NCBI GenBank assembly: GCA_016934825.1
Contig: JAFGSB010000174.1
Location: forward strand, 1 to 42,331
From: Candidatus Zhuqueibacterota bacterium
Lineage (GTDB): Bacteria > Zhuqueibacterota > Zhuqueibacteria > Residuimicrobiales > Krinioviventaceae
Length of the DNA stretch: 42,331 nucleotides
Direction: 5' to 3'
This document shows, piece by piece, positions 18,126 to 42,331 of the stretch (the stretch's first letter is position 1; each line of letters begins with the position of its first letter). The notes under the pieces were generated by a model, which was not told the DNA's origin, made no database searches, and saw nothing but the letters and a program-made list of their open reading frames with translations. A program made the translations under genes and the position numbers.

Positions 18126-18208
18126 TATTGTTTTTATTAAAGATACAATTAATAATTTAAAATTATTTAACGCTAATGAATATTTTTTAAAATGTGGAGG
18201 TGGCTTTG

Positions 18209-20494: not shown

Positions 20495-20556
20495 TTACTT
20501 TATAAACCGAAACATACTAATGGATTGCAAATTTTATAATAAAGAGGTTTAGACTG

Positions 20557-21588: not shown

Positions 21589-21656
21589 AATATGACTTTA
21601 GATAAATTAAATTAATCCGTAATATGAATGCTTTGTCTCTACCGGAGGGATGATAT

Positions 21657-25781: not shown

Positions 25782-25849
25782 TAAATGGTTTTTGATCGTT
25801 GTATTATATTTGAATGATTTCGGATATATTGAGTGTAAAGGAGGCATTA

Positions 25850-27166
25850 ATGACCCATATAAAGACAAGTACAAAGAAGATATGCTTTTTTGTGTTAATC
25901 AGTCTGGTATTTTTAATTTTAATGATATCAGGATGTTCTCATAAATCTGATAATATTCCCACTAAACCGGAAAGTGTGGAATCTTTAATAAATGACGGCT
26001 GGGAAGCATTTCAGGCAGGTGATTATAACAAAGCTATCCTCAATTTTGAACAAACCCTAAAAAGAAATGTAGATCCGGAAATTTCTATAAACGCTTATCG
26101 TGGTTTGGGCTGGACTTATAGCCGAATTGAAAAATATTCTCAGGCAATTACTAATTTTAGTTTTGTAATCAGTCTTGAAACTGTTCGAACAAAAAGACTC
26201 CCGGTAATCAATTCGGAAAAAGTACCGGCTTTTGCCATACCCGACACGGCAGATGTTCGATTTAATGGTAACTGGCAGATGACAACCGATGCTTATATTG
26301 TAAATGTTGAAGATGTCGAGAGTTATAATACCAGAGTAAACCAAAAACTGGGTCCGGCCCCCGCATTTATTCTCGATCCGGGAATAGAATCGATCAATCT
26401 TCCCAAATCAGAAATAAGTAACAAAGCCGGTACAGATTTAGGGAGCCCGCTTGACAATTCATTATCGTTCAGTCCGGACAGTCTGAAAACTGCAGTGCAT
26501 TCGGTGGAAGATATGGCATCTCTCTATGATTTTTATCTTGATGCGCAAAAGGGTGTTGTTGAAATACTGCCGAGGATATATAAACTTGAAAACATAACCG
26601 CCAATTTTAAGTACCATGAAAAAGGATATATTATTAAAAGAACTGAAAATCAATTCGTTTCCCTGGAAAAAACTCTGGACGACCTGACCAAGACGCCGCC
26701 TGACAGCGTTGGAGATATTTATTATTTGAAAGGCAGTTTTTATAATAAATACAATCCGGATGATCCAACATCCGGTGGAACATTTTTGCAGGCGGATGCT
26801 TATGCCGGTATGTCTGCGGTTTATCTCGCACAGGGCGAATTCCAGTTGGCTATTAATGCCGCACGGGCTCTAATTTATATTAACCAGGATTTAAAAACGA
26901 TGGATGAGACGCATTTTCCATATAAACGATCTTTATATGAAAGTGATAACAGTTTTGATCTGTGGGATTTTTATAAAATATTAGCCATTAGTTGTTTTAA
27001 TGTGAATGATTATTTAGGTGCGGAAAAAATTGTTGAAATAAATATGGATCAGGGTAAAGATGCTGTTGATAATAGCAAAGCAGAATTCATTTTTGATTTA
27101 TTAACCAAAATAAATTCATTGCCGGATGACGCACCGGGCGGTTGGATGCCCGTTGATATTTGGTAA
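25850..27166 (+). CDS. TPR-containing outer-membrane-type lipoprotein
   Basis: The start is ATG 25850, five bases after AAGGAGG; an in-frame ATG at 25814 adds 12 residues that spoil the signal peptide. The 438-residue product has a lipoprotein signal (MTHIKTSTKKICFFVLISLV, then LMISGC with Cys29) and Ser at +2, which suggests outer-membrane retention. Residues about 45-110 contain tetratricopeptide-like pairs, for example GWEAFQAGDYNKAILNFEQ and GLGWTYSRIEKYSQAITNF. A second TPR-like part lies near AGMSAVYLAQGEFQLAINAAR. The function is unknown; TPR lipoproteins often scaffold outer-membrane complexes. It stands between two genes for secreted proteins with sorting tails, 68 bases after the first. 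Confidence 0.85.
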   Translation: MTHIKTSTKKICFFVLISLVFLILMISGCSHKSDNIPTKPESVESLINDGWEAFQAGDYNKAILNFEQTLKRNVDPEISINAYRGLGWTYSRIEKYSQAITNFSFVISLETVRTKRLPVINSEKVPAFAIPDTADVRFNGNWQMTTDAYIVNVEDVESYNTRVNQKLGPAPAFILDPGIESINLPKSEISNKAGTDLGSPLDNSLSFSPDSLKTAVHSVEDMASLYDFYLDAQKGVVEILPRIYKLENITANFKYHEKGYIIKRTENQFVSLEKTLDDLTKTPPDSVGDIYYLKGSFYNKYNPDDPTSGGTFLQADAYAGMSAVYLAQGEFQLAINAARALIYINQDLKTMDETHFPYKRSLYESDNSFDLWDFYKILAISCFNVNDYLGAEKIVEINMDQGKDAVDNSKAEFIFDLLTKINSLPDDAPGGWMPVDIW

Positions 27167-27240
27167 TAATTGTGTTTAATAATTATAAAATTTAATACAG
27201 TTATTCAAATTTAAAGACCAGAACAATTAAAATATCAATG

Positions 27241-27250
27241 AGGAGGTGAT
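27241..27250 (+). promoter_or_regulatory. Orphan perfect Shine-Dalgarno sequence in leader
   Basis: AGGAGGTGAT fully complements the usual 16S rRNA 3' end but no ATG follows at normal spacing. The next gene starts 76 bases on with its own GGGAGG. An in-frame GTG at 27246 opens a 27-codon frame whose TGA (27327-27329) overlaps that gene's ATG. Confidence 0.35.
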
Positions 27251-27325
27251 AAATAAAAGCATTCATATTTTTAACACATTTAAATTATTATTAATAGTGC
27301 GTTCACCCTTTATATGGGAGGAAAT

Positions 27326-30103
27326 ATGAGAAAGCAAAAATCAATTTGGTTACTGTTTTTAATTGTAGCTTTACTTTTTTCAATGGTTAGTTATGTAAGC
27401 GCTCAGAAAAAAGTTGTAAAAAAGTATGAGCCTTTAACTCCGCAAAGAAATGTTGCCGATTATACAAAACCGGGTGGTATCGTTATCGGTGATGCAATGC
27501 CGAGAGCATTCCATTACGGTGGTCGTAACAGTGCAAGGACATCTGATGGATTAATGCATGTTTCATGGGAAGATCCTACATATACATTCCCTTATTACGC
27601 ACATTCTTTAGATGTTTTAGGACTTGAATGGTCCGAACCGATCAACATTCCGGAAACGATTGGCTATGAAAACTGGGATCGTTGTTTGATGTCCAGAGTG
27701 TCTGTTGATCCAACCAATGACGATATATACCTTGTAACCGCCCCGCAAGTTTCCGGAGGCGTCTGGAGAACTCAAATAGCCCGTTCCACCGACGGCGGCG
27801 CGACATGGTCGCCTTTTATGGATCTGGGTTCAAAAATTAACGTACCGACAGCGGAAGTGTCATGGGCAACATGTGCAATTGGAACGGATCGTGTACTGCA
27901 TATCACATACGCGTACCAGAACCAGGATATGTTCTATACCAAAACAGATCTATCTCTTGCCGATGGAAAAGCGGACCTGGCGGACCTTGTTTTTACAACT
28001 TCTGATGGCGTAACAGTCGGCGCCGAAGCGATCTCTTTTGTGCCGAGCGGTGTTGTATTTCAGGGAACCATAGTTCTTGACCGGAACAATGATCCGCATA
28101 TCATTTTCTCCGGTGACGGTGGGTCAGATACTTTTGGCGATAAAACTCCTTACCATATTTATTATAAAACTGCTGTCCACCAGTGGGGTCCAATTCCGCC
28201 GACACGTCTGCAGGAAGAGTTGGAAGAATGCTGGGGAATGCCTGAAATGGTATTCGACAAGAACAACAGAGGTTATTATTTTATGGATGCAACCGCAGAC
28301 GGTTTATGGTTTGGTACCTGGGAACCGCCGGTAGATCCTGAAAGCCAAACGGATTTTGGTACCCTGAATAACGGCGAGGGTCCTGAAGGCGCCTTAAATT
28401 TGACAACAGATAATTATCCTGAAGTTGAAGTCATTCCTGACGATCAGGGTTATTTACCCAACGCAGATGTTGACGATGTAAATGATATCGTTTACGTTGT
28501 TGCAAGCACCGGAAGTTTTAATGACGCAACCGGCGCCGGCGGCGATATTTTTGCCTTGAAACTGGAAAACGCTTCGACTTTAACAGGTGTTGCTCCGGCT
28601 GATATGCCCTGGAAATTACATCGATGGATAACCAAAGACGGTGATTCTCCACTGGGCGATGTTGGGCCGGATGTGATCTATGATCCCGCTTCAACAACAC
28701 TGGATATTTTCTGGTCGGGCGCCGGGGCTTTGAATAACGAAGCCAATTACCTGGATGGTACGGCCGTTATTCCAGCCATTGATGCGAAACCACAATCTCT
28801 GGATATCGGTAAAACCGTTAATAATCCGATAAACAAAGGTGAAACCATCTTGATCAAGGGAACTGTAAAAAATAATGGTACAAATCCTTTGGGTCCGGTA
28901 GATGTAATTGTAACTGTTACTGATTCACTTGATGCCGTTTTATGGTCTAAAGAATTAAAAACTCCACCACTGCTTGCTGATCAGTTAAGTACTGTCTTAA
29001 CATTTGGTGAATGGACAGTTCCGGATGAAAAGCAGAATTACAGTGTTACCCTGGTTACAGCTTATGAAGGCGATGAAGCGGCTTATAATAATTCGGTAGG
29101 AGCGGGATTTTATGCTTATCCTGCTTTAGATGAAGTAACTTATGTTGAAATCTTTCAAGATTCATCATACTGGTATACCTTTGCGAATGGTACAGGCGTC
29201 GGTATGTTCCCGACAACATACAGCGGCGGCGTATTATATGAAGAACAAAATGTTGGCGGCTGGACAGTTTATGATAGTACCCACACCGATGCCGATCCTT
29301 ATTTGAATACCTGGTATCTTTCCGGTGATGCTATTGACGATGATCTTGGCGCCTATATTCGTCATTTAAGCGGTACAACATTAATCACCGACAGTTTATA
29401 CGGCGATATGAACACCGGTTGGCCGGCTTTACCGCAAAACGAGCTCCTCATCAGTCCGGTTATTGATATATCCGGTCATGTTGGCGGGGAAGATAAAGCA
29501 GTATATCTCGAATATTCGGAAAATGTTGACGGCACCGATGGTGATGATAATTATCCGATTTATGCTACCGTTCAGGTTGCCGTTGATAATGGTGATTGGC
29601 AGACTGTTCAGGAAATGGCTAAAACTGTTGCAGGTGGAACCGAAGCTTTTAGTCATTCAGTAGACTTTATGTCTTTTGATATTACCAATTTGGTTGCCGG
29701 CGGCAGCACAATGCAGGTCAGGTATTGGTGGCGCAACCCGAACAACAGCGGAGAATTTGCTACCTGGTGGATTGATAATGTGACCGTAATTGAACGTGAT
29801 GCTCCAACCAACGCAATTGAGGATAATTTAAATGTTGCCAGTACTTTTAAATTATCACAAAACTATCCAAATCCGTTCAACCCGACTACAGAGATCAGTT
29901 ATACTTTGCCGGAATCCGGGAAAGTTAAACTTGTTGTATACAATGTTACCGGTCAGCAGGTTGCAACATTGGTTAATGCGTGGGTAAAATCCGGATCACA
30001 TAAAGTCAGTTTTAACGCTTCCGAATTGCCGACGGGCGTTTATTTCTATAAATTAACAACCGATAATATGGAAGCTGTCAAGAAAATGGCTTTAATTAAG
30101 TAA
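27326..30103 (+). CDS. Secreted protein with BNR/sialidase-like fold, CARDB-like domain and type A sorting tail
   Basis: I start at ATG 27326, which GGGAGG precedes, rather than at ATG 27314, which lies in that site. The 925-residue product has a signal peptide (MRKQKSIWLLFLIVALLFSM, cleaved near VSAQ). The first half carries BNR-like motifs (RSTDGGATWSPFM) and repeated propeller-type strands. A CARDB-like segment follows (IKGTVKNNGTNPLGPVDVIV, about 508-600). A jelly-roll domain then ends RYWWRNPNNS and WWIDNVTVIE, like cleaved-adhesin or choice-of-anchor modules. The C-terminal tail is SQNYPNPFNPTTEISYTLP, ending TGVYFYKLTTDN and VKKMALIK. It is probably exported through the sorting-tag route and may act as a surface adhesin or glycan-binding protein; no catalytic residues are identified. 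Confidence 0.85.
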   Translation: MRKQKSIWLLFLIVALLFSMVSYVSAQKKVVKKYEPLTPQRNVADYTKPGGIVIGDAMPRAFHYGGRNSARTSDGLMHVSWEDPTYTFPYYAHSLDVLGLEWSEPINIPETIGYENWDRCLMSRVSVDPTNDDIYLVTAPQVSGGVWRTQIARSTDGGATWSPFMDLGSKINVPTAEVSWATCAIGTDRVLHITYAYQNQDMFYTKTDLSLADGKADLADLVFTTSDGVTVGAEAISFVPSGVVFQGTIVLDRNNDPHIIFSGDGGSDTFGDKTPYHIYYKTAVHQWGPIPPTRLQEELEECWGMPEMVFDKNNRGYYFMDATADGLWFGTWEPPVDPESQTDFGTLNNGEGPEGALNLTTDNYPEVEVIPDDQGYLPNADVDDVNDIVYVVASTGSFNDATGAGGDIFALKLENASTLTGVAPADMPWKLHRWITKDGDSPLGDVGPDVIYDPASTTLDIFWSGAGALNNEANYLDGTAVIPAIDAKPQSLDIGKTVNNPINKGETILIKGTVKNNGTNPLGPVDVIVTVTDSLDAVLWSKELKTPPLLADQLSTVLTFGEWTVPDEKQNYSVTLVTAYEGDEAAYNNSVGAGFYAYPALDEVTYVEIFQDSSYWYTFANGTGVGMFPTTYSGGVLYEEQNVGGWTVYDSTHTDADPYLNTWYLSGDAIDDDLGAYIRHLSGTTLITDSLYGDMNTGWPALPQNELLISPVIDISGHVGGEDKAVYLEYSENVDGTDGDDNYPIYATVQVAVDNGDWQTVQEMAKTVAGGTEAFSHSVDFMSFDITNLVAGGSTMQVRYWWRNPNNSGEFATWWIDNVTVIERDAPTNAIEDNLNVASTFKLSQNYPNPFNPTTEISYTLPESGKVKLVVYNVTGQQVATLVNAWVKSGSHKVSFNASELPTGVYFYKLTTDNMEAVKKMALIK
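29864..29889 (+). repeat. Conserved DNA block in sorting tail, copy 2
   Basis: Matches the blocks at 25527 and 33525 at 24 of 26 bases, encoding the same YPNPFNPTT core. Confidence 0.8.
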
Positions 30104-30114
30104 ATTTTATTCTG

Positions 30115-30138
30115 GAGGCGGTTTTATAAAACCGCCTC
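30115..30138. terminator. Perfect 24-base palindrome between two secreted-protein genes
   Basis: GAGGCGGTTTTA pairs exactly with TAAAACCGCCTC, starting 11 bases after the stop at 30103. The transcript would form a strong GC-tipped stem. A short pyrimidine-rich stretch, not a clean T-run, follows, so it could be a partial terminator or an RNA-stabilising stem between cistrons. Confidence 0.5.
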
Positions 30139-30151
30139 TATTGTTACTCTC

Positions 30152-30167
30152 CTTTAATTAATTAAAG
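30152..30167. repeat. Perfect AT-rich palindrome
   Basis: CTTTAATTAATTAAAG is a perfect 16-base palindrome, 13 bases after the previous one. Symmetry of this kind could be a dimeric regulator site; no regulator is identified. Confidence 0.35.
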
Positions 30168-30203
30168 TGAATTCTTTTCATTGACTTATACAAGGAGAAC
30201 AAT

Positions 30204-33200
30204 ATGGTCAATAAAAAATTACTAATAATCTTGTTTAGTTTGACGCTGCTATTTAGTTTTATAGCTGCATCGTTCGCTAAAAATGCGTCAACTGATGTAC
30301 AGAAAAAAGACAAAGCTTTTAAATCTGTTATTAACATGCCAAATGTCAACTCTGTCGAGGCTCGTAATGCCGCGAAAAAGGCTTTAATGAAAAGCAGAGG
30401 GTTGACAAGTCAGCAGGTTATCAACAAGGCCAAAAACAGGAACGCGGTAAAAGCCAACCAGGAACTGGCGCCCGTAACAATTGATGATGTACCGGGCGGC
30501 GGCGATATTTTCCCGGTTTTGGAAAATACGTTTGATTCCCAGGAAGATTTCGATCAGTTTGATCTGCTCGATTTAAGTACGGAAGGCTGGGGTAACGACT
30601 GGTTCTGGTTTAAAGGCTCTGATTATGGCTGGCCAAATTCGGCTTTCGCGCCCGAACCGGGCGGCGATTTTGGCGGAAATGTCGAACCGAGAGACGAAGT
30701 TATGCAGATAAGACTTGGAATCCCAAAAGTTGCGGATAACGGTCTGCCTTATCGTGTAGCAAGTCTGGCCATGAACTTTTATGTCGGCGAACCCGATCCG
30801 GATGATTCTCTGGGCATAGATTTAATGGAAGCCCCCAAATGGCATGTTGATAATGACGTTTGGGTTATGACAAGCAATCAATATGGCAGTCAAACTTATG
30901 GCGCACAATGGGTTGATGATTTAATAACTGCTCCTATTACTTTGGGATCGGGTCCTATCACTCTTAGTTTCAACCATTTGATAGTATCGGAAATTGATTG
31001 GGACGGCGGTAATGTTAAAATTTCAACCGATGCCGGTGCAACCTGGACTGTTATCGTACCGAATGAAGGTTATGATATTGATGATTTATATGCGTTCAAA
31101 TATCATGGAGGTCTCGCCCAGGGTTTAACCGAAGATGATTTTGATTTTGGTGTACCAACAGCCTGGGATCAACCCGGTTACAGTACCGACAGTATGCATG
31201 ATTTTGCTGCCGCAACATTTGATTTGTCAGCCTATGCGGGACAGACAGTTCAAATAAAATGGGAATGGGCCTCTGACGGCGGGTATCAGGAACCGGGCGG
31301 CGGTTGGTGGATCGATGATATCGTTATTACCGACGGCGGGACAGATATTTTTGCAAATGACGGTGTCGACAACGGCGATCTTGTTGCCAAACGTCTGGGC
31401 ATTGGATTTGCCCCCGAACGCTGGGAATATCTTGCCTCAATAAGAGGTTACGGCGCCGCATTATTGACGGGAAGCGTTAATCTGACCGAAAACCTCATCG
31501 GCGCGCCCGGCGATTCCGTTACGCTTCGTTTCCGCGCCGTTTATGATGACAATGACGAAGGCACAAGCGCTGATCCGAACTGGGGTTTTGAAGTGTATGA
31601 CGCGACTTTAACCGTTTACACCCGGTTGGCCGAAGATATTGGTCCTACTTTTGTGGATTTGGATTCAACTTTCACAAACGGCGGAACGGTAACTGTTGGC
31701 GAAACTTATGATCCCCAGGTTGTTATCAGTAATTTCAGTCTGAGTGATTTTACCATATATAACACCTTTGTCAAAATTATGAACCAGTTCGGTTCGCCCG
31801 TTTATGAGCGCTATATTTATACCTACGCTCCGGCGCAGGGCGACACACTGTTTCTGTATCCCGGTTATCAGGAGTTTAACGACGATCAGGGTTTTTACAA
31901 CTTTCCTGATTGGACGCCCGAGTATGAGGGAGATTATACCTTGCTGGCTTATACCGAAGTGTTCGGCGGCGATGATGAGCCGCTGAATGATTCATTGCTT
32001 GTTAATTTCCATGCATATACGGAACAGCCTGTTTATATGGAAAATTTCGAAGGCATGACCGACGATGAATTAAATGCTGAATGGACACAAACCAACGGCA
32101 CATTTTTTATCGGTGATGTTATCGGAAACGGCGATGATGAACTTTCTGCTTTCGAGTGGCCGTCCGCCACACCGGTTAGTGATCTAATCATGTCTCCCTC
32201 GATTGATTGTTCGGCATTAACAAATACCGGTTTAAGAATGGATCATTGGTGGCGGGCTGCTCAGTTGGACCCGAACAACCTTTTTAATATACTTGTCACA
32301 ACCGACGGCGGCGCAACCTATGATACGGTAATAACAATGGGAAGTGATGCTGTTACTCCTTCAAGTGTTCGTTACGGTATTCATTTATACGATATATCGG
32401 AATTTGCAGACGGTCAAAGTGATGTTCGTATTGCCTTTGATTATTCGATCGTGGCCGGCGTTAACTTTTTCCTCCAGGTTGATGATATCGAGGTATACGG
32501 CGGCGCGGATTTTGTACCCACCGATGCAGCTGCCAATTTTACCGGCGTATCGGGAGATATGAAAGTTGACCTGAGCTGGGATGCTGTTGCCGGCGCTTCA
32601 TATTATACGGCTTGGGTTGCACCGGATGCCGATTTGGACAACGCTGTAGCAGCAGTTGAAGTTTCTGCGAAAAAATGTACCGTTACAGGACTAACCAATG
32701 ATGACGATTACTATTTCTGGTTGACCGTAACTGATTTTAATAACAACATCAGCGACCCGGTTGGCCCGATTATGGTTACCCCAAAGGACGTAACCGCTCC
32801 GACAAAGATTACGGACCTATTAGCTGAAGAATTGGATGCACCGGTTAAGAAGATCACGTGGTCTGCTCCCGCGGAATCAGTTCCTGCTGAAGGCAGTACA
32901 TATGATATCCGTTATGCTTATGAACCGATCACGGCAGAAAACTGGGCAACCGCTACACCTGTGACCAACGACCTTGAAGTTGCCGCGGAAGGCACCGAAC
33001 AATCATTGGAAGTTTCGGTTGCACGTCCGACATTTGATGTTTGGTTCGCTATTGTGACAGTTGATGAGGCCGGAAATGCTTCTGAAATGTCCAATGTTGC
33101 TCTGGCTGATGATACGCCTCCAGGGAAAATTACCGATCTTGAGGTTGTCGAGGTGACGGCAACAACGGTGACCCTGAAATGGCATGCCAAGGGTGATGAT

Positions 33201-33779
33201 GGTGTTCAGGGCGGTCCAGCGGATCATTTTGATATCCGTGTAGCTTATGAAGAATTGGACCAGGCAGGCATGGAAGCAACATGGGAGAAAGCGGCCAAAA
33301 TGACAGCGCTTCCCAAACCTGCTGATCCGGGAGAAGAACAGGTTTACACGGCTTCCGAGTTTGTATACACAAGTTCAAAAATGACGTTCATCATGAAAGT
33401 TATCGATAATAAAGGTACGGAATCCGAATTTTCAAATATTGTTGTTTCGGATGTTTGGGAAGATAATGGTAATTCTGTTGAACAGGAACAAAAACTGCCC
33501 GAAACATTTGATATGGCACAGAATTATCCGAATCCGTTCAACCCGACAACCGCTATTTCGTATCAATTACCAAAAGCATCTTTTGTCAAACTGACCATTT
33601 ACAGCGCGACCGGTCAAAAGATCCGTACGCTTGTAAACGGTACAAATTCAGCCGGTTATCATCACATCAACTGGGATGCAATGGATGACGCCGGTCATAA
33701 AGTTGCCAGCGGTATTTACTTCTATCGTATTGAAGCGGATGATTTTATCAGTATCAAGAAAATGACCCTGATGAAATAA
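30204..33779 (+). CDS. Secreted multidomain protein: cleaved-adhesin-like modules, FN3 repeats and type A sorting tail
   Basis: The 1191-residue protein has a signal peptide (MVNKKLLIILFSLTLLFSFI, cleaved near SFAK). Two jelly-roll modules of the cleaved-adhesin/choice-of-anchor kind end WWIDDIVITDGG (about 370) and FLQVDDIEVYGG (about 757). Three fibronectin type III-like repeats follow between about 770 and 1090 (AAANFTGVSGDMKVDLSWD, then APTKITDLLAEEL, then PPGKITDLEVVEV). The sorting tail is MAQNYPNPFNPTTAISYQL, then SGIYFYRIEADD and IKKMTLMK. AAGGAGA precedes the ATG. It is the last gene of the surface cluster, followed by a strong terminator. It is probably displayed or released at the cell surface; whether it binds cells, glycans or other cluster proteins is open. 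Confidence 0.87.
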   Translation: MVNKKLLIILFSLTLLFSFIAASFAKNASTDVQKKDKAFKSVINMPNVNSVEARNAAKKALMKSRGLTSQQVINKAKNRNAVKANQELAPVTIDDVPGGGDIFPVLENTFDSQEDFDQFDLLDLSTEGWGNDWFWFKGSDYGWPNSAFAPEPGGDFGGNVEPRDEVMQIRLGIPKVADNGLPYRVASLAMNFYVGEPDPDDSLGIDLMEAPKWHVDNDVWVMTSNQYGSQTYGAQWVDDLITAPITLGSGPITLSFNHLIVSEIDWDGGNVKISTDAGATWTVIVPNEGYDIDDLYAFKYHGGLAQGLTEDDFDFGVPTAWDQPGYSTDSMHDFAAATFDLSAYAGQTVQIKWEWASDGGYQEPGGGWWIDDIVITDGGTDIFANDGVDNGDLVAKRLGIGFAPERWEYLASIRGYGAALLTGSVNLTENLIGAPGDSVTLRFRAVYDDNDEGTSADPNWGFEVYDATLTVYTRLAEDIGPTFVDLDSTFTNGGTVTVGETYDPQVVISNFSLSDFTIYNTFVKIMNQFGSPVYERYIYTYAPAQGDTLFLYPGYQEFNDDQGFYNFPDWTPEYEGDYTLLAYTEVFGGDDEPLNDSLLVNFHAYTEQPVYMENFEGMTDDELNAEWTQTNGTFFIGDVIGNGDDELSAFEWPSATPVSDLIMSPSIDCSALTNTGLRMDHWWRAAQLDPNNLFNILVTTDGGATYDTVITMGSDAVTPSSVRYGIHLYDISEFADGQSDVRIAFDYSIVAGVNFFLQVDDIEVYGGADFVPTDAAANFTGVSGDMKVDLSWDAVAGASYYTAWVAPDADLDNAVAAVEVSAKKCTVTGLTNDDDYYFWLTVTDFNNNISDPVGPIMVTPKDVTAPTKITDLLAEELDAPVKKITWSAPAESVPAEGSTYDIRYAYEPITAENWATATPVTNDLEVAAEGTEQSLEVSVARPTFDVWFAIVTVDEAGNASEMSNVALADDTPPGKITDLEVVEVTATTVTLKWHAKGDDGVQGGPADHFDIRVAYEELDQAGMEATWEKAAKMTALPKPADPGEEQVYTASEFVYTSSKMTFIMKVIDNKGTESEFSNIVVSDVWEDNGNSVEQEQKLPETFDMAQNYPNPFNPTTAISYQLPKASFVKLTIYSATGQKIRTLVNGTNSAGYHHINWDAMDDAGHKVASGIYFYRIEADDFISIKKMTLMK
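33525..33550 (+). repeat. Conserved DNA block in sorting tail, copy 3
   Basis: Identical over 26 bases to 25527-25552, although flanking tail sequence has diverged. Confidence 0.8.
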
Positions 33780-33993: not shown

Positions 33994-35106
33994 TTGTTCA
34001 CACAAAATCCCAGGTTACATAAAATTCAGGATAATTTATTTCGGGTCAAAACAGCACTTGATCATGCCAGTGATGCCATTCAAATTGTAAATGAATTGGG
34101 CAAAAGCCTTTATCATAACAAAGTCTTTATTCATTTATTCGGGTATACAGTTGAACAACTCAACGAAGCCGGGGGTATTTTTGCCGTTTTTGCAGAACCC
34201 GATATACCCCAACAAATTTTGTCAAGTCTGGAAGAAAAAAATTCCTGGAATGGGTCAGTAAAAATATACTCATTATCCGGCGAATTAAAACTGTTATATT
34301 TGAGAATTTATAAAGTGATGGACAATCATTCGACAAGTGTGGGGAATATATGTATGTTTAATGAAAAAAATTCTCAATTATATGTTTATTCTGATAGAGA
34401 GAAATATCTGAAAAAAATTGAAGACGCTGAAAAGCTTGCCCGATTGGGATATTTTTCATCTGCAATTTCGCATGAGTTAAATAATCCTTTGAATATAATC
34501 CAAACAAAGTTGTTTTTGCTTAAAAGAGGTTTGTCTGAAATTCATATGGATGAAAGCCATGAAACCTGGGAACATATTGACAAAATAAATCAACAGATAA
34601 TCCGGCTTTCCAACCTGGCGCAAAGTATCTTACAATACGCAAAACCAGCCTTAAAAAAGGATTACCTGGTTAATATTAATCAACTTTTATTGCGAACTCT
34701 TGGATATTTTGAAGATTTTTTTTCTGAGACAATTCACCTGCAGAAAAAGTTCGATCCAAATTTGTCCATGATACCCGGAGATGAAACCGGCCTGGAAATA
34801 GTTTTTAAAAATATTATTTTAAATGCCATTGAATCCATTCATAGTAAAGGGATGATTGAAATTACAACAAAAAATTTTGACGACAAGCATATTCATGTCA
34901 TAATCAAAGATACCGGCATCGGTATTACCCAGGAGAATATAAATAAGGTATTTGATCCGTTTTACACAAATAAGGAAAAAGCAGGCGGTTACGGCCTGGG
35001 ATTAAGTCTTTGTGAAAATATAATCGAAGAACATAATGGATTTATTTCCATTAAAAGCAAAGAAAATATTGGCACAATATTTGTCATTCATCTTCCCAGA
35101 GTATGA
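33994..35106 (+). CDS. Soluble PAS-domain sensor histidine kinase
   Basis: Translation starts at TTG 33994, preceded by GAGGG at 33982-33986; no ATG fits. The 370-residue protein has no signal peptide or membrane segment, so it is cytoplasmic. Residues about 15-120 form a PAS domain (ASDAIQIVNELGKSLYHNKV, then FGYTVEQL). The H-box is ISHELNNPLNII with phospho-acceptor His160. The ATPase part shows the N-box ILNAIESI, G1 DTGIGI, F-box FDPFYTNK and G2 GYGLGLSLC. It would autophosphorylate and pass phosphate to the response regulator that starts 27 bases downstream. A TTGACT box at 33855 may belong to its promoter. The PAS ligand or cofactor is unknown. Confidence 0.92.
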   Translation: MFTQNPRLHKIQDNLFRVKTALDHASDAIQIVNELGKSLYHNKVFIHLFGYTVEQLNEAGGIFAVFAEPDIPQQILSSLEEKNSWNGSVKIYSLSGELKLLYLRIYKVMDNHSTSVGNICMFNEKNSQLYVYSDREKYLKKIEDAEKLARLGYFSSAISHELNNPLNIIQTKLFLLKRGLSEIHMDESHETWEHIDKINQQIIRLSNLAQSILQYAKPALKKDYLVNINQLLLRTLGYFEDFFSETIHLQKKFDPNLSMIPGDETGLEIVFKNIILNAIESIHSKGMIEITTKNFDDKHIHVIIKDTGIGITQENINKVFDPFYTNKEKAGGYGLGLSLCENIIEEHNGFISIKSKENIGTIFVIHLPRV

Positions 35107-35133
35107 TTTAGTAGATTTAGAAGGGGATTTTTT

Positions 35134-36519
35134 ATGTTCAAAGTTTTATTGGTCGATGACGAGGTCGAAATTCTTCGTGATAATTGCAGGTTAATAGTGG
35201 AAATGGGTTATGAATGTTTCATTGCTCATAACGGCAAAGAAGCGTTAACTCTTATACGACAGGAACATCCTGATGTTATATTGACCGATCAAAAAATGCC
35301 GGTTATGGGAGGTATGTCATTACTTGAAGAATTAAAATTGATTGATAAAACGATACCGGTTATATTTTTTACCGGATACGGAACAGTGGATACCGCTGTT
35401 AACGCTATGAAATCCGGTGCATTTGATTATCTGCAGAAACCTTTTCCGCCGGAAAAACTGGAATCTTTGTTAAAAAAGGCATTTGATTATAGAGAAGCAA
35501 TTTTAGAAAATAAGGACAATCATGAACCAAACGGGAAAAAAATCAAACTTGAAGGTGTAATTGGTAAAAGTAAAGTGATCGAAGCTATCACCAGTTCTGT
35601 TTTTAAAGTTGCGCCGACTGAGTCAAATATATTTATATACGGTGAATCCGGCACAGGGAAAGAGTTGGTTGCGCGGAATATTCATATTTACAGCAAGAGA
35701 AAAGACCAGCCGTTTATTCCTTTGGACTGCAATGCCTTGCCAGGGAATTTACTGGAAAGTGAAATATTTGGTTACGAAAAAGGCGCTTTTACTGGTGCAG
35801 ATAAAACCAAACCCGGAGTGATAGAATTAGCGGACAAGGGAACATTATTTCTGGATGAGATTATAGAGATGGACATTAATTTACAATCCAAATTATTGAG
35901 ATTCATACAGGAAAAAAGCTATCGTCGGCTTGGCGGACAGAGAACAATCCGGGTAAATGTGCGCATTATATCCGCCACAAATCGAAATCCGATGGAAGCA
36001 GTTAAGCAGAATAAATTAAGGCATGATCTTTATTATCGTTTAAATGTTGTTCCCATTTATATCGCCCCTTTGCGGGAACGGAGTGAAGATATTCCATTAC
36101 TCGCCAAACATTTTATTAACAAATTCAACCCCTCCTTAAGCCGTGAAATTAAAGGGATCACCTCTGATGCCTTGCTTTGTTTAAAAAAATACAACTGGCC
36201 CGGGAATGTACGGGAATTACAAAATATTATCGAACAGGCTATGTCCTTAACAGAACAGAATATTTTAGACCTTGCTGATCTTCCGCAAAATATCCGTGAT
36301 AATTATGAGTTTTATATTGATGAAAAAACGAATGGTTTAACGTTTAAGGATGCCAAAGATAAAGTCCTGAAACAATTTGGGAAAAAGTATTTTGAGGATT
36401 TACTCAAAAAATGTGAATGGAACATATCCAAAACCGCGCGTGAGGCAGGGATCAGCCGTAGTTCTTTTTATCGGATACTTGATGAATTCAATATTACCAT
36501 TCCGGAACAAAAAAAATAA
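35134..36519 (+). CDS. NtrC-family sigma54-dependent response regulator
   Basis: The 461-residue protein has three parts. A receiver domain (1-120) carries Asp8-Asp9 and the phospho-acceptor Asp52 in VILTDQKMPVMGG, with a KPF motif (LQKPFPP) after FDY. An AAA+ domain (about 140-370) has Walker A GESGTGKE near 169-176, the sigma54-contact loop GAFTGA near 217-222 and Walker B TLFLDEI near 241. A C-terminal Fis-type helix-turn-helix is WNISKTAREAGISRSSFYRI (about 428-447). Phosphorylated protein would activate sigma54 promoters. It pairs with the upstream kinase. It is convergent with the lipoprotein operon, whose last gene ends 50 bases away, and that operon is an obvious but untested candidate target. 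Confidence 0.96.
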   Translation: MFKVLLVDDEVEILRDNCRLIVEMGYECFIAHNGKEALTLIRQEHPDVILTDQKMPVMGGMSLLEELKLIDKTIPVIFFTGYGTVDTAVNAMKSGAFDYLQKPFPPEKLESLLKKAFDYREAILENKDNHEPNGKKIKLEGVIGKSKVIEAITSSVFKVAPTESNIFIYGESGTGKELVARNIHIYSKRKDQPFIPLDCNALPGNLLESEIFGYEKGAFTGADKTKPGVIELADKGTLFLDEIIEMDINLQSKLLRFIQEKSYRRLGGQRTIRVNVRIISATNRNPMEAVKQNKLRHDLYYRLNVVPIYIAPLRERSEDIPLLAKHFINKFNPSLSREIKGITSDALLCLKKYNWPGNVRELQNIIEQAMSLTEQNILDLADLPQNIRDNYEFYIDEKTNGLTFKDAKDKVLKQFGKKYFEDLLKKCEWNISKTAREAGISRSSFYRILDEFNITIPEQKK

Positions 36520-36568: not shown

Positions 36569-37579
36569 TCAGGGTAACGAAATCCATAATGCCCCATATC
36601 CGTCAAAACTCATATCAAATATATTAAAAACTTGAGCATTTGATAAAGAATTTATCAACGCAAAAGTTGTGAGAACATTCATCTCTTCATCGTATTGTCT
36701 GAGTAAAAATTCATTATTATCATAAGCGTAAATGTATCTATAATATGCCATGGCGCTTAAATTCGGAAAATCAAAATTCCAACTTTGCAGGATATTTCCA
36801 GGATTATCCGGTTCATGCTGGTAAATATTACTATTCGAACAGGAATATATACAATTTTTTTTGGGGTAAAATGTTATGCCGGAAATGTTCTGAGACAACT
36901 GGTATTTTCCGGTGAGAGTACCGTCAGTTGTGTTGATAATATACAAAGTATCTGGGGCGACACAAGCATATAATCCGTTTCGGCCAAAGGCCATTGAAGT
37001 TAGGTTTTTCCTGTAAAAGGGAGAAATATAAAAATTTTCATAATTCCACATTTTATTCGTTTGTTTGTAGATACGGAAAAGATCTGCGTCAATAAATGGG
37101 TAAGTATCATTTGCCGGAGAGGAGCCAAACCAGAATTCGTTACACCATGCTTTTGATCCAGAGATGGCCAAAGCCGGATTAGTTGATATCGTATGCTTAA
37201 ATTCCTGAGCGAAATAAACCTGAGGTACTTTAATGATAGTTGTTGTATCCTTGTGGTGGATTTCAATCCTTTTATTGAAAAGCCAATAGCCATCCTTTTG
37301 AAAGCTGTAAAAATAGTAACCGGGATATACAGGATCAAATTCAAAAAACCCGTTACTGTCCGTGGTGTCTATTTGTATTCCGAATTCAACGTCATACAGC
37401 ATTTTATATTCCGATAGTTTTATCGGCACATGTGCTAATTTCTCCCCGGAATCGTAATCCATCGCCGTACCATTGAATATGTAATTTGGAATAACGGGAC
37501 GTGTTATATCATGAGATTGTTTTTTCCAACAGCCAAAAATCAGGAGAAGGATAAATAAGAGTAAAATAATTTTTTTCAT
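36569..37579 (-). CDS. Lipoprotein of a three-member paralogous family (member C)
   Basis: This 336-residue protein has a lipoprotein signal MKKIILLLFILLLIFGC with Cys17. The mature N-terminus is CWKKQSHDITRPVIPNY, shared with its two upstream neighbours. Residues about 35-115 look like a carboxypeptidase-regulatory-like beta sandwich (GTAMDYDSGEKLAHVPIKL, then DTTDSNGFFEFDPVYPGYY). The remainder has repeated short beta-strand units with propeller character (LTSMAFGRNGLYACVAPDTL, SGITFYPKKNCIYSCSNSNI and, at the end, FDMSFDGYGALWISLP). I do not recognise the family and see no catalytic residues. It starts 14 bases after the stop of member B and is last in the operon. It is clearly closer to member A than to its neighbour B. 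Confidence 0.88.
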   Translation of the reverse strand: MKKIILLLFILLLIFGCWKKQSHDITRPVIPNYIFNGTAMDYDSGEKLAHVPIKLSEYKMLYDVEFGIQIDTTDSNGFFEFDPVYPGYYFYSFQKDGYWLFNKRIEIHHKDTTTIIKVPQVYFAQEFKHTISTNPALAISGSKAWCNEFWFGSSPANDTYPFIDADLFRIYKQTNKMWNYENFYISPFYRKNLTSMAFGRNGLYACVAPDTLYIINTTDGTLTGKYQLSQNISGITFYPKKNCIYSCSNSNIYQHEPDNPGNILQSWNFDFPNLSAMAYYRYIYAYDNNEFLLRQYDEEMNVLTTFALINSLSNAQVFNIFDMSFDGYGALWISLP

Positions 37580-37593
37580 TTGCCCAACCAGAT

Positions 37594-38622
37594 TTATTTT
37601 ATCATTACCCAGAGATTATCATTACTATCAATATCAAAATCGTAAATATTTTGTATCTGATATTCAGTATCCCGGTTTATTAATACGAATGTTGCTGTAA
37701 CATTCATGTTTTCATCATGGAGACGGAGCAGATATTCATTATTATCATAAGTATATATCTTTTTATTAAAAGCCATAGCGTTAAGATACTGGGATGGCGC
37801 CGGAAATGTATTAATTATTGAATAATCATCAGGATCGAGAGTGTATATTTCGGTATGTGAACAGGCATACAAATTTTTATCTGTTGTATTAAAAGTCAGA
37901 CCGAAGAGATTGATGGAAACTTTTTTAGTCCTTTCCGGGTAACCGGTCCATCTGTTTAATGTTAACATGGAATCATCCTTTGTGGAGATATAAATTTTAT
38001 CCAAACCGATAGTCATTTTACGAATGTTAATATAATTTATGACAGGAGTAAACGGTTTTTCAAAATACCAATTATTCCATTTTGAATAAAAAACGGCAAT
38101 CGCCGGATTTGTTACGTATCCAAACACCCGGTTGCAATTGATAAAACATTTGCTCCCGTCAATAGCAAAAGCGCCATTTTCCATGGGAAAGTAAAATTCG
38201 TTTGAGCTGTGTCCCGTATATTTGTTTAATAAAATATTTGCATAGATAGTTTTGGGTACTTTGATCGTCATGGTTCTGTCCGTATGAGCGATCTCGATTT
38301 TTTTGGTGGAATGCCAGGAATCTCCCGATTTCAGGGTTATAATATAATTTCCGGGATAAATTGGATCTATAAAAAAATAACCGTTGCTGTCCGATTCAAC
38401 AATGGTCGTGTTAAATTCGACATCGTATAGTAATTGTCCCGCCTGAATTTTAATTGTCGTTTTGGGCAGGATTTCTTGCGTGTCAATATCGATCGTTTTA
38501 CCGCTCAAAATATAGCGCGGAATTTCAGGCCGGTTGATATCATGTTCCTGCTTTTGCCAGCAATTGAAGAACTGTATTCCTATGAATATGAAAAGGATTT
38601 TTTTAAAATTTTTGCGTATCAT
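37594..38622 (-). CDS. Lipoprotein of the same paralogous family (member B, divergent)
   Basis: I start at ATG 38622, giving 342 residues and a compact lipoprotein signal MIRKNFKKILFIFIGIQFFNC with Cys21; in-frame TTG 38640 and ATG 38637 are alternatives, and none has a good ribosome binding site. The mature start CWQKQEHDINRPEIPRYI is the family signature. A beta-sandwich region follows (IDIDTQEILPKTTIKIQAG, then ESDSNGYFFIDPIYPGNY). A propeller-like half follows that contains MAFNKKIYTYDNNEYLLRLH and ends DSNDNLWVMIK. Identity to members A and C is clearly lower in the second half, so it may have a distinct ligand or partner (inference). Function unknown; probably outer-membrane anchored. 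Confidence 0.85.
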   Translation of the reverse strand: MIRKNFKKILFIFIGIQFFNCWQKQEHDINRPEIPRYILSGKTIDIDTQEILPKTTIKIQAGQLLYDVEFNTTIVESDSNGYFFIDPIYPGNYIITLKSGDSWHSTKKIEIAHTDRTMTIKVPKTIYANILLNKYTGHSSNEFYFPMENGAFAIDGSKCFINCNRVFGYVTNPAIAVFYSKWNNWYFEKPFTPVINYINIRKMTIGLDKIYISTKDDSMLTLNRWTGYPERTKKVSINLFGLTFNTTDKNLYACSHTEIYTLDPDDYSIINTFPAPSQYLNAMAFNKKIYTYDNNEYLLRLHDENMNVTATFVLINRDTEYQIQNIYDFDIDSNDNLWVMIK

Positions 38623-38678
38623 AAATTGTAAGAACATCAAAAATAGTTTACAATCTCATCAAGCCGGAAAAAATTTTA

Positions 38679-39698
38679 TCAGGGGATAGAAACCCACAGG
38701 TTACCATAGCCGTCAAAACTCATGTCCCAGATTTTATTTATTTGTGTTTCAGTTTGTTCATTGATCAGGGCGAAGGTTTCAAGTATGCTCATGTCAGTAT
38801 CATGTTTTCTCAGCAAAAACGAGCTGTTGTCATAAGAATAAATATTTCTGTAATAGGCTATGGCGCTCAAATCCGGGGTGTTTATTTCATAAGTATTTTC
38901 AATTTTTTCAGGCAGGTCCGGCTCATGTTTATATATTGAGTTCTTTGAGCAGGTATATATACATTTTTCTGACGGATAAAATGCTATACCATTTACAGTC
39001 ACCGGGAGGACATAATTTCCGCTTAACGAGCCGTCCCAGCGGTTCAGCACAAATAACGTATCAGGAGGGACACAGGCGTAAACACCGTCCCGGCCAAAAG
39101 CCATTGATTTAATTACTTTTTTATTTAGCGGCGACCGCAACCAATCTGTTATTTCCCAGTGATAATTTATATATTTGCTGATGGTGAACCAGTCTCTTTG
39201 AATATCCGGCCAGGGTGGATGTAACAGATCTTTTGCCCTGGTGATCTTCCACGCCTCCGAGCCGGTAATGGCGAGCGCCGGGTAAGCGGAACCGCCGCGG
39301 GAAAATTGTCCGCCGATAAAAATTTTCGGCACTTCAAGCAGCGCGGAGGTATCTTTATGACCAATGGTGATGCGTTTTTCATTTATATAAAAACCGTCTC
39401 TTTCGAAACTGAATGTATAATTTCCAGGATAGACCGAATCAAACTGAAAAAAACCGTTGCTGTCCGTTTTTACAATTCGCGTCGCGAAATCCACATCGTA
39501 CAGCATGTATTCTTCAACCATTTTGATTGAAATGTCATGCAGGTTTTCCCTGCTGTCGATATCGACCGCCGTACCATTGAAAACATAATTGGGAATTAGG
39601 GGTCGTGTGATATCATGGTCCTGCTTTTGCCAGCAATTGAGGAACTGTACAGTAACAAGAATGATCAGTAATGTTTTTATTTTTTTAGGCATAGTCAT
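38679..39698 (-). CDS. Lipoprotein of the same paralogous family (member A)
   Basis: The best start is ATG 39698, one base after the receptor stop codon (TAA-A-ATG), which implies translational coupling; an in-frame start at 39743 would overlap the receptor and bury the signal peptide. ATG 39692 is also possible. The 339-residue product has signal MTMPKKIKTLLIILVTVQFL and then NC with Cys22; the mature start is CWQKQDHDITRPLIPNYV. It has the family beta sandwich (KTDSNGFFQFDSVYPGNYT) and the propeller-like half (KSMAFGRDGVYACVPPDTLF, FYPSEKCIYTCSKNSIYKHE). The end, WDMSFDGYGNLWVSIP, nearly matches member C. Its place right after the receptor is the one that SusD-type partners hold, though no SusD homology is seen. 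Confidence 0.87.
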   Translation of the reverse strand: MTMPKKIKTLLIILVTVQFLNCWQKQDHDITRPLIPNYVFNGTAVDIDSRENLHDISIKMVEEYMLYDVDFATRIVKTDSNGFFQFDSVYPGNYTFSFERDGFYINEKRITIGHKDTSALLEVPKIFIGGQFSRGGSAYPALAITGSEAWKITRAKDLLHPPWPDIQRDWFTISKYINYHWEITDWLRSPLNKKVIKSMAFGRDGVYACVPPDTLFVLNRWDGSLSGNYVLPVTVNGIAFYPSEKCIYTCSKNSIYKHEPDLPEKIENTYEINTPDLSAIAYYRNIYSYDNSSFLLRKHDTDMSILETFALINEQTETQINKIWDMSFDGYGNLWVSIP

Positions 39699-39699
39699 T

Positions 39700-42192
39700 T
39701 TAAAATTTAGCGTTAAAACCCAAACGAATCCTGTACCGCTCATCCCAGGCGCCGGGATCGCTCAAAATACCGCCTTTCCGGCCTTCGGAATCCATCCAGA
39801 GCAGATTTTTCCGGTCAAATATATTCAATAATTCACAAAAAACGGTCACCGGTAATCCGGCAATTTGAAAGTCCTTGTTCGCCCGTAAATCCAGTGTAGT
39901 TACCACATACAGGCGCGCGTTATTCGGTTCCGTTGCAACACCCCTATATTCCGTGTATGGCAGTGGACTGTTCCATCTCCATAACAGGTTCAGCCCCCAG
40001 TTGTTCGGTTTACGGATGTCGACATTGGCAACCAGGGTGTGGCGCTGGTCCCAGCTCAGATAATATTCATTAATGGGCACTTTGGTGTCCTTGGTCAGCC
40101 AATTGAATTTTTCCGTATTTTCCGAGCCGGTCCCTTTAGCGGTCATATATGTATAACTGATTTTCCCGGAAAAAAACTGGCTGACATCCCGTTTTAGATA
40201 TATTTCTGTTCCCCAAACATTCACGTTTTCCAGGTTCACGTAACGCGAATAACCCGTTCCGGCAAGTGAATTCTTTTGAATATCGAGGTAGGTGTTGTTA
40301 TCCACCAGATTGCTGACTTCTTTGTTGAAAACTGTAAAATCAAACAAAGTTTTTTCACCGATCTGGTTTTTATAGCTGACTTCATAAGATATTGTTTTTG
40401 CGGGTTCCAGGTCCGGGTCGCCAAGCGGTGAAAATCCTTCCGCCAGATTAAGGTTCGAATTTGTGTACAGATAATCAAACAGCGGCATTTGAAAGAACCA
40501 GCCGTAATTCACGTGCAATTCCTGATCCGTCCCCATAGGAATTGCCAGGCCAACACGCGGGCTGAACTGATGTTTCATTTTCGCTTTATATTTATTATCC
40601 TGATTGATGATCCACTGTTGCCGCTGTCCATAAACTTTTTCTTCAAGGGCCGGTCTTTCGGCTTTCGGGTCTAAAAAATCGTAACGCAGGCCGATGTTGA
40701 CGATCATACCGTCGTAATCGATTTTGTCCTGAATATAGTACGCCCCGCGAATTGGATAGTATTGATATTCCGTATCATAGGAGATATATTGCGGGAAATC
40801 GGGATCATAGGTTTTTACTTCCAGTCTTTGTACATTTTTTTTGTACAGATCATAATATACAAATTCGCCCCCGGTTTTTAGCTGATGATAGTTAGTCAAT
40901 TGTGAGGTAAAGTCGATTTTGGCCGTGTTATGAATTTCCTGATGGTCCAGCCACCAGGGATAATCACCGGCAGTGACCCAGCTTAAGGGATTGTTATTTT
41001 CATATTCCACCCCCGCCATATCAATTGATGAAGCGCCGTAAATGGATTTTAAAACATTGTACTGGCTTAATCTGATTTCGTAAAATGTTTTAGGGTTCAG
41101 CGTATGAGTTGCTGTCAAACTGATCCGGTAACTTTTTTTGGAACGGTCCGGCAGTCCCTCGAGGTTTTTGCTCCATTTGTGATCGTACTCTTTCCAGTCC
41201 CACAGGGATAGCAAACCCTGCAGTCTGATCTTTAAAGATTTTAACGGCGACCAGGATAGTTTTCCGTTCAGGTTTAAATTTTGACTTGACATATTGTTAA
41301 ATATCATCAGTCTCTGGCCAAAATCTTCTCTCCGCCAGCGGGTATTGGGAGCGCGAAGATCGGCCGCAATATAAAATTTCAGTTTTTTTGTCAACAGAGG
41401 GCCGCCGAGGTACATTTCCGTTATCCAGTCCAGGTCCTGTTCCCTGTCCCTGAACGGATTACGCATGGCCTGGTATTTTTGTGTTGAAATTTCCGCCATG
41501 GCGTTCAATTTGTCGTTGCCGTCCTGTGTCAGAATGTTAACCACTCCCGACATGGCATTGCCGTATTCCGCGTTAAATCCGCCCGTTTGTACAGTCATAT
41601 CGATGATCGAACTCATGGGCAGTTCGGAGCCGACCCGTCCTTCAATCACTTCCTGGATCGGGAAACCGTCCACCAGATACAGCACCTCGCTCTGCCTGCC
41701 GCCGCGAATATGACCCGCTGCCACACCGGGCTGGATATTGACGATCTCGGTAAAGGACTGAACAGGCAGCTGGTTGACTTCCTGGCGGCTGATAAAATGA
41801 GTCGTTGCGGTAACATCTTTCTGGATCATCGACGCGTTTGCCGTTACGGTTATCTCCTGCATTTCCAGGACCCTGGGATCCAGTTCAAATACCAGGGTGG
41901 TTCTTAGATCCATGAGGATTGTCACATCTTCTATGATCATGGATGTATAACCGATCATTTCAGCTTTGACTATATATCTGCCGGCGGGGATATTATTTAT
42001 GAGAAAAAAACCCTTTATGTCCGCCGCCGCACCAAGATAAGTGTCCACCAGGGTAATATTGGCCCCCGGCAGAGGTTCATTTGTGTTTTTATCCAGTACC
42101 TTCCCGGCCAGCGTTCCCGTTATACCGGCAAAAGACATGTTTACGAACAGGAGCAGGCAAAAGATCAGAAAAATATGTATCGGCTTTTTCAT
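39700..42192 (-). CDS. TonB-dependent receptor with CarboxypepD_reg-like domain (lipoprotein operon)
   Basis: The 830-residue protein has a signal peptide (MKKPIHIFLIFCLLLFVNMS, cleaved near FAG). A carboxypeptidase-regulatory-like domain follows (about 25-105: GKVLDKNTNEPLPGANITL, then GYTSM). The plug domain (about 110-235) has IRGGRQSEVLYLVDGFPI and GGFNAEYGNAMSGVVNILTQ. A barrel ends RIRLGFNAKF with terminal Phe. It resembles the receptor at 14982 in the first 230 residues but lacks its acidic loops, which explains its shorter length. It would transport an unknown ligand across the outer membrane. Three paralogous lipoprotein genes follow without a visible terminator. A TATAAT-like box lies upstream on the minus strand without a good -35 partner. 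Confidence 0.93.
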   Translation of the reverse strand: MKKPIHIFLIFCLLLFVNMSFAGITGTLAGKVLDKNTNEPLPGANITLVDTYLGAAADIKGFFLINNIPAGRYIVKAEMIGYTSMIIEDVTILMDLRTTLVFELDPRVLEMQEITVTANASMIQKDVTATTHFISRQEVNQLPVQSFTEIVNIQPGVAAGHIRGGRQSEVLYLVDGFPIQEVIEGRVGSELPMSSIIDMTVQTGGFNAEYGNAMSGVVNILTQDGNDKLNAMAEISTQKYQAMRNPFRDREQDLDWITEMYLGGPLLTKKLKFYIAADLRAPNTRWRREDFGQRLMIFNNMSSQNLNLNGKLSWSPLKSLKIRLQGLLSLWDWKEYDHKWSKNLEGLPDRSKKSYRISLTATHTLNPKTFYEIRLSQYNVLKSIYGASSIDMAGVEYENNNPLSWVTAGDYPWWLDHQEIHNTAKIDFTSQLTNYHQLKTGGEFVYYDLYKKNVQRLEVKTYDPDFPQYISYDTEYQYYPIRGAYYIQDKIDYDGMIVNIGLRYDFLDPKAERPALEEKVYGQRQQWIINQDNKYKAKMKHQFSPRVGLAIPMGTDQELHVNYGWFFQMPLFDYLYTNSNLNLAEGFSPLGDPDLEPAKTISYEVSYKNQIGEKTLFDFTVFNKEVSNLVDNNTYLDIQKNSLAGTGYSRYVNLENVNVWGTEIYLKRDVSQFFSGKISYTYMTAKGTGSENTEKFNWLTKDTKVPINEYYLSWDQRHTLVANVDIRKPNNWGLNLLWRWNSPLPYTEYRGVATEPNNARLYVVTTLDLRANKDFQIAGLPVTVFCELLNIFDRKNLLWMDSEGRKGGILSDPGAWDERYRIRLGFNAKF

Positions 42193-42306
42193 TTTTTAAT
42201 CCGTTTTATTTTAGTCAGGAATATTTGTATAACCAGATTTTCCTTTAACGTGTGTTTGCAGCAAAATAATTGGCAGGAATTATATACCATACAATTTAAT
42301 ACAGTT

Positions 42307-42321
42307 GTCCGGTTTTAACCG
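42307..42321. repeat. Copy 5: GTCCGGTTTTAACCG palindrome upstream of the receptor gene
   Basis: The motif contains CGGTT-TT-AACCG arms and shares GTCCGGTT with the copies at 8811-9695. It lies 115 bases before the receptor ATG, just upstream of the region where a -35 box would be expected. Confidence 0.5.
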
Positions 42322-42331
42322 TATACATGTA

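Follow-up and report, generated by a model that had tools for sequence, protein, structure and literature searches.

A TonB-dependent receptor encoded with three modular propeller lipoproteins in a Zhuqueibacterota bacterium, and its recurrent proximity to genes for secreted peptidases

The window analyzed here is a 42,331-nucleotide stretch of DNA from Candidatus Zhuqueibacterota bacterium (contig JAFGSB010000174.1 of assembly GCA_016934825.1), which is labeled C49 in the draft genome (G000, 5.39 Mb); its sister species is G001. At the end of the window, on the minus strand, the gene of a TonB-dependent receptor is followed by those of three paralogous lipoproteins, A, B and C. We regard this arrangement as a real, conserved and unnamed form of TonB transporter with a surface lipoprotein lid, which is unusual in the modular build of the lid and in its proteolytic context. 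The account that we lean towards, though only slightly, is that of a transporter with three alternative surface lipoproteins as lids that takes up peptides or other products of peptidases.

Operon and protein architecture

A first-pass annotation of this DNA had proposed a single operon of a receptor and three lipoproteins. Indeed, all four open reading frames (ORFs) are found in an operon-like layout: receptor and A are 1 nt apart, A and B 56 nt, and B and C 14 nt. For lipoprotein A, the mechanical ORF call of 39743 was replaced by the ATG at 39698 (or 39692). A scan for promoters and terminators was uninformative, with promoter-like sites barely above those in shuffled sequences and terminator-like sites below them; a single transcript is therefore suggested by the gene spacing. 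The features of the region are as follows.

42193..42331, no strand assigned: region upstream of the receptor, ending at the contig end (synteny with the sister species)
39700..42192, minus: TonB-dependent receptor, 830 aa, with signal peptide, CarboxypepD_reg-like N-terminal domain, plug and a barrel of ~22 strands (ORF, Pfam, AlphaFold2)
41845..42108, minus: CarboxypepD_reg-like N-terminal extension of the receptor, residues 29-116 (Pfam)
41839..41862, minus: putative TonB box MQEITVTA, residues 111-118, between the N-terminal extension and the plug (sequence reading)
41542..41823, minus: plug domain of the receptor, residues 124-217 (Pfam, family alignment)
38679..39698, minus: lipoprotein A (ORF; start at ATG 39698 or 39692)
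39585..39635, minus: conserved anchor linker of A, CWQKQDHDITRPLIPNY (32-member alignment)
37594..38622, minus: lipoprotein B, second type (ORF; start at ATG 38622; orthologue of lipoprotein 5 of the sister species)
38512..38562, minus: conserved anchor linker of B, CWQKQEHDINRPEIPRY (32-member alignment)
36569..37579, minus: lipoprotein C, the type of which G001 has a tandem of four (ORF)
37481..37531, minus: conserved anchor linker of C, CWKKQSHDITRPVIPNY (32-member alignment)
37226..37483, minus: predicted beta-sandwich domain of C, CarboxypepD_reg-like, residues 33-118 (AlphaFold2; Pfam CarboxypepD_reg at 5e-4, below cut-off)
36572..37222, minus: predicted small beta-propeller of C, residues 120-336, 19 strands (AlphaFold2, VIA-align)

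The mature N-termini of the lipoproteins, CWQKQDHDITRP in A, CWQKQEHDINRP in B and CWKKQSHDITRP in C, follow exactly the pattern CW[KQ]KQ.HDI[TN]RP that had been read from them earlier. The post-cysteine linker, with the 17-residue consensus C[WF]xxQx[HN][DE][IV]xxPxxPxY, is the most conserved stretch in the alignment of the lipoprotein family: Cys1, Gln5 and Pro15 are invariant in all 32 members, which come from four nominal phyla, and an aromatic residue occupies position 2 in 31 of them and position 17 in all 32. Such conservation would fit a segment used for docking or as a hinge. A and C are the most similar pair (52% identity, versus 35% for A and B and 36% for B and C), as the annotation had stated. 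With C as the query in its own genome, A is retrieved at an E value of 6e-114 and B at 9e-57; these values and the recurrence of the lipoproteins in other genera, families and phyla place their likeness far beyond chance.

The AlphaFold2 model of C, calculated with 14 family members, has a mean predicted local distance difference test score (pLDDT) of 89.3 and a predicted template modeling score of 0.82. Past the signal peptide it consists of beta structure throughout, with residues 33-118 forming a beta-sandwich and residues 120-334 holding 19 strands, in agreement with the proposed combination of a beta-sandwich domain and a propeller-like half. Compared with solved structures using VIA-align, the propeller best matches the five-bladed 3nol, a glutaminyl cyclotransferase (Z 18.3, rmsd 3.2, 201 residues), and next NHL and WD propellers. 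Judging the blade number from the strand count (19 strands in ~215 residues), the modeled propeller appears not to be seven-bladed but nearest to the five-bladed ones.

Profile searches bear out the description of the lipoproteins as an unrecognized family, since they match no named lipoprotein family and the nearest solved propellers share only their fold. In A, B and C, Pfam detects just a weak CarboxypepD_reg-like signal in the first half, and NCBIfam yields no genuine match. Membership of the SusD family, which the annotation too had doubted, is ruled out by the absence of any match of A, B or C to the SusD Pfam models at E<=1 together with the all-beta model of C; SusD-like_3 is itself absent from G000 and present in 11 of the 63 genomes of the class. 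DUF4374, the domain of XusB, is not among the Pfam matches of the lipoproteins at E<=1. A profile of 14 lipoprotein members found no BtuG chains in the PDB sequences at E<=1, and neither BtuG nor XusB is among the best 50 matches listed for the lipoprotein fold, although some likeness may exist.

Other resemblances were examined and set aside. Glutaminyl cyclotransferase (PF05096) activity is rejected despite the best fold match, given that there is no Pfam match, the hhalign probabilities are 0.9 and 19.5 and the identity is 10-12%; because a sequence match is missing, the likeness is one of fold and not of membership. The match of the lipoprotein profile to NOMO and cellulosomal scaffoldin is confined to the sandwich domain, a common fold. 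The profile also picks up a 533-aa protein (L128:1414-3015) with NHL-like propeller repeats and, by eye, a transglutaminase-like second half, and similar matches recur throughout the class in open frames of ~500-670 codons. This protein was rejected as a family member, as only the propeller repeats are in common.

In the receptor, Pfam recognizes CarbopepD_reg_2 (6e-17) and Plug (1.6e-07), and the plug motifs DVTATTHF and GHIRGGR are invariant across the receptor family. Its AlphaFold2 model is of moderate quality (pLDDT 66) and resembles solved TonB transporters with Z values of up to 33.4. Related receptors carry the labels Calditrichota or candidate division KSB1 bacteria, which places the genome in their neighborhood.

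Conservation, neighboring peptidases and history of the lipoproteins

Among the 63 genomes of the class, a profile search detects true lipoproteins in seven, and close receptors (56-79% identity, tier 1) in exactly those seven, a coincidence with a chance probability of p ~2e-9 before correction for kinship. In two of these genomes (G034, G054), receptor and lipoproteins are unlinked, yet they co-occur. The receptor of G001 (L032) is 79% identical and is followed by five tandem lipoproteins, whereas a single lipoprotein adjoins the receptor in G002 (L039), in G013 (L041) and twice in G046 (L043, L044). At receptors of 44-45% identity (tier 2; G015, G017 and G044, L084-L086), a more distant lipoprotein beginning CF[QK].Q... 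directly adjoins. Relatives beyond the class were found with the receptor alignment as the query; a contig scan using a single lipoprotein confirmed none. In metagenome-assembled genomes (MAGs) of Marinimicrobia (L114) and Calditrichota (L118), the lipoprotein lies directly upstream of the receptor. A single-contig genome of Gemmatimonadota encodes one receptor alone, a second with an adjoining lipoprotein, and three further full-length lipoproteins elsewhere. The neighborhood is thus conserved in relatives and in other phyla, and the lipoproteins match no named lipoprotein family, so that neither of the two results that would have refuted the annotation was obtained. We consider the partnership of receptor and lipoprotein well supported.

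The pairing is also specifically associated with secreted peptidases. In G001, divergent from the receptor and 200 nt away, lie genes for two M6 peptidases, an S8, a C25 (gingipain-type), a non-peptidase and a further S8, in this order, and both M6 proteins carry C-terminal type IX sorting tails. Contig C60 of G000 begins with the same genes in the same order, collinear with the G001 island (43-70% identity by tblastn), and each of the four G000 copies examined with Pfam has a sorting tail. Because the window contig ends 139 bases upstream of the receptor and synteny is kept, C49 and C60 very likely adjoin, although they have no bases in overlap. An S8 peptidase gene follows the pair in G002 (two copies), G013 and G046:C90; the only M6 of G054 comes after its receptor; and in tier 2 an M28 peptidase with a sorting tail comes after the lipoprotein in G015 and G017. 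With the window's own locus excluded, five of the seven testable tier-1 loci adjoin S8 or M6. A further 69 Plug receptors, all from the two genomes G000 and G001, served as controls, and none of them lies within 10 kb of S8, M6 or C25 (p 1.1e-6). The neighboring proteases have Sec-like N-termini, as judged by eye, and Por_Secre_tail or FlgD_ig tails, and SprA of the type IX translocon is encoded in 10 of 10 genomes tested. Since the pairing usually adjoins secreted peptidases, uptake of peptides or other digestion products is probable.

A tree of the lipoproteins places B as the orthologue of G001 lipoprotein 5 (100/100) and C as the sister of G001 lipoproteins 1-4 (98/95), which were duplicated within that lineage, while A forms a separate branch. 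At least two lipoprotein types therefore existed before the two species diverged; one of them has expanded. The earlier suggestion of two functional types fares well in this light. The ratio of nonsynonymous to synonymous substitution rates between recent copies is ~0.18; the five tandem lipoproteins of G001 are under purifying selection. Copy 4 of G001 is a mosaic, with a sandwich half like that of copies 1 and 2 and a propeller half like that of copy 3, the switch falling around codons 95-100, close to where the two domains meet. Recombination therefore swaps propellers between anchors.

Some loci show other arrangements. In a Spirochaetales MAG, a 3351-base contig (L115) encodes a close receptor (48%), and the genome yielded no lipoprotein; the contig is possibly mis-binned, as the isolate name shares the Zod_Metabat series with several KSB1 bins. 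More distant receptors adjoin other small lipoproteins (CEEKIPEGP..., ~260 aa, or CEESLPPR..., ~200 aa; L087-L091, L095, L096, L100, L102), so the receptor family may have swapped partners. Related receptors from one family within the class repeatedly adjoin a gene that by eye is folylpolyglutamate synthase-like (MNETDTLEFLNNLQRFGW...; L093, L094, L098, L099, L101, L103, L106), and no lipoprotein was seen within the short flanks of these loci. Solo lipoproteins without a receptor gene nearby (L035:1320-3496, L036:8581-15117, L037:7616-12923) come as pairs or accompany large type IX cargo, namely a C10 peptidase and PKD and BNR proteins; in L036, a lipoprotein lies between the C10 peptidase and a PKD protein. 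One copy in L037 (11843-12923) is split over two frames and one in L036 (14296-15117) is shortened, so that decay of some copies is possible. L033:1-2405, close to a lone lipoprotein of the sister species, holds tandem proteins with repeats that look curli-like by eye (NSATISTTGSGNTASASQTG...). The window contains a second receptor operon on the plus strand (14982-33779), which encodes a 1047-aa TonB receptor, a protein of 766 aa, a PorV-like protein (20557-21588), a TPR lipoprotein and three large proteins that bear type IX sorting tails. L137 holds a set of receptor, cargo, PorV-like protein and lipoprotein that resembles it.

Proposed mechanism, known systems and alternatives

In the mechanism that we propose, A, B and C would act as interchangeable, substrate-capturing lids on one transporter. 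Each would be anchored by its lipidated cysteine, and the 17-residue linker would dock the lipoprotein on the transporter or serve as a hinge, as may the linker of BtuG. The CarboxypepD_reg-like sandwich would hold the small propeller, which varies among the paralogues and may select the ligand. The cargo would be peptides or other products of the S8, M6, C25 and M28 peptidases with type IX tails that are encoded beside the receptor. Such a system would resemble BtuBG and XusAB in its mechanics and RagAB in its cargo.

BtuG of Bacteroides is a propeller lipoprotein that forms a lid on the cobalamin TonB transporter BtuB, and the lipoprotein linker of BtuBG is a proposed hinge (PMC10404256). 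As there, the receptor gene adjoins a lipoprotein gene, and the lipoprotein has a linker after the lipid cysteine and ends in a beta-propeller. Unlike the seven-bladed BtuG, however, the propeller here is smaller and sits behind a CarboxypepD_reg-like domain, and the loci have tandem lipoprotein arrays, adjoining secreted peptidases and no cobalamin riboswitch that we could find. XusB, a seven-bladed propeller lipoprotein with DUF4374, is the lid on the TonB xenosiderophore transporter XusA, also of Bacteroides (PMC13142918). A transporter with a CarboxypepD-like N-terminal extension and a propeller lipoprotein recur here, but the DUF4374 match does not, the propeller is of another size, and the neighbors are peptidases. 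The SusCD-like RagAB of Porphyromonas gingivalis imports gingipain-made peptides and has a SusD-type lid (PMC11817032). The possible import of products of type IX-secreted proteases is shared, and the neighboring island encodes a gingipain-type C25; in contrast, the lid RagB belongs to the SusD family and has a TPR fold, whereas the lipoproteins here are all beta, and the receptor scores 49.8 bits against the SusC/RagA model TIGR04056, below the cut-off of 368. Glutaminyl cyclotransferases (PF05096; 3nol, 3mbr) offer the nearest solved fold for the propeller half, but they lack a lipid-anchored sandwich domain ahead of the propeller and have no convincing profile match to the lipoproteins.

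Several observations weigh against peptide uptake through such lids. Two of the seven tier-1 loci, both on short contigs, and one of the three tier-2 loci have no nearby peptidase; the peptidase families were picked after some loci had been viewed, and the loci are phylogenetically related. Other receptors in these genomes also adjoin type IX cargo of other kinds, so that adjacency to cargo is not in itself specific. Surface exposure, a physical complex, the lid mode and its motion, and the ligand, peptide cargo included, are parts of the proposal that we infer. Finally, the receptor model is most like siderophore, colicin and cobalamin transporters, including BtuB chains bearing BtuG lids, with no RagA/SusC entries among the best 50 fold matches listed for it.

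These fold matches count in favor of a variant in which the same transporter and lids take up heme, a siderophore, a corrinoid or a similar small cofactor or metal complex that the neighboring proteases help to free from proteins. The best profile of the receptor is likewise the hemin TonB subfamily TIGR01785, and the invariant histidines of the receptor family include H132, H161, H363 and H718. However, the hemin score of 99.4 bits is far below the curated cut-off of 316.85, FQMP/DPDL-like motifs are a general feature of TonB transporters, and neither a cobalamin riboswitch nor one of another class scores at the gathering threshold in the window, with its 139 bases upstream of the receptor, or at nine related loci. 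Cobalamin uptake is not favored, as no riboswitch was found. Since the receptor resembles small-ligand transporters, uptake of heme, siderophores or cofactors keeps some probability, but we judge it unlikely. The lipoproteins might alternatively be no lids at all but surface proteins that dock or retain secreted peptidases, or bind a polymeric substrate, near the receptor. Several solo lipoprotein genes, such as that in L036, adjoin type IX cargo without a receptor gene, and lipoproteins outnumber close receptors in the genomes. Yet in the class the lipoproteins never occur in a genome without a close receptor, so that a receptor partner fits better than an independent adhesin, and we think a docking role rather improbable.

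The main outward-going alternative is a receptor that secretes the neighboring proteases. Oar of Myxococcus xanthus, a TonB transporter with a CarboxypepD_reg extension, is required to secrete the subtilisin-like PopC, for which sequence analysis was reported to show no signal peptide (PMC6434023). Extension and plug are found here too, and subtilases adjoin several of the receptors, but the extension is common to very many TonB receptors and the likeness is thus weak. Propeller lipoproteins are no part of the Oar-PopC system as described, which exports rather than imports. Because the proteases here, unlike PopC, have sorting tails of their own besides Sec-like N-termini, and the genomes encode SprA, export by the receptor is disfavored and seems very improbable. 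A sensing complex, in which ligand binding by the lipoproteins is signaled through the receptor or an adjacent histidine kinase and sigma-54 regulator, might be suggested by the PAS histidine kinase and sigma-54 response regulator directly downstream (33994-36519, plus strand, convergent). As Pfam finds no STN signaling domain in the receptor and this gene pair does not accompany the operon of the sister species, we give sensing scarcely any weight. Of the uptake or sensing complex that the annotation had envisaged, uptake is thus favored by the secreted peptidases and sensing is not. As a whole, its reading of the locus is supported, with a function that the sequence suggests.

Implications for Calditrichota and KSB1 bacteria

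Calditrichota and KSB1 bacteria are mostly known from metagenomes, and we know of no description of peptide uptake across their outer membrane. Pairs of a TonB transporter and a beta-propeller lipoprotein are, to our knowledge, known so far for cobalamin and siderophores in Bacteroides. We tentatively put forward, as a possibility that we hold with some doubt, that the system may be an undescribed class of outer-membrane peptide importer in Calditrichota, KSB1, Marinimicrobia and Gemmatimonadota, in which a modular lipoprotein replaces the SusD-type lid of RagAB, and tandem lids share one transporter while their specificity is reshuffled by recombination at the domain boundary. A cultured member of the Calditrichaeota, Caldithrix abyssi, is a peptide fermenter (PMC5317091). 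If true, the proposal would give a concrete and testable answer to how peptides pass the outer membrane of Calditrichota and KSB1 bacteria, tied to type IX-secreted proteases, and would extend the pairing of TonB transporter and propeller lipoprotein to several further phyla and perhaps to another nutrient class. The presence of several lids per transporter, one of them a mosaic, would offer a natural test of how specificity is shared between lid and transporter.

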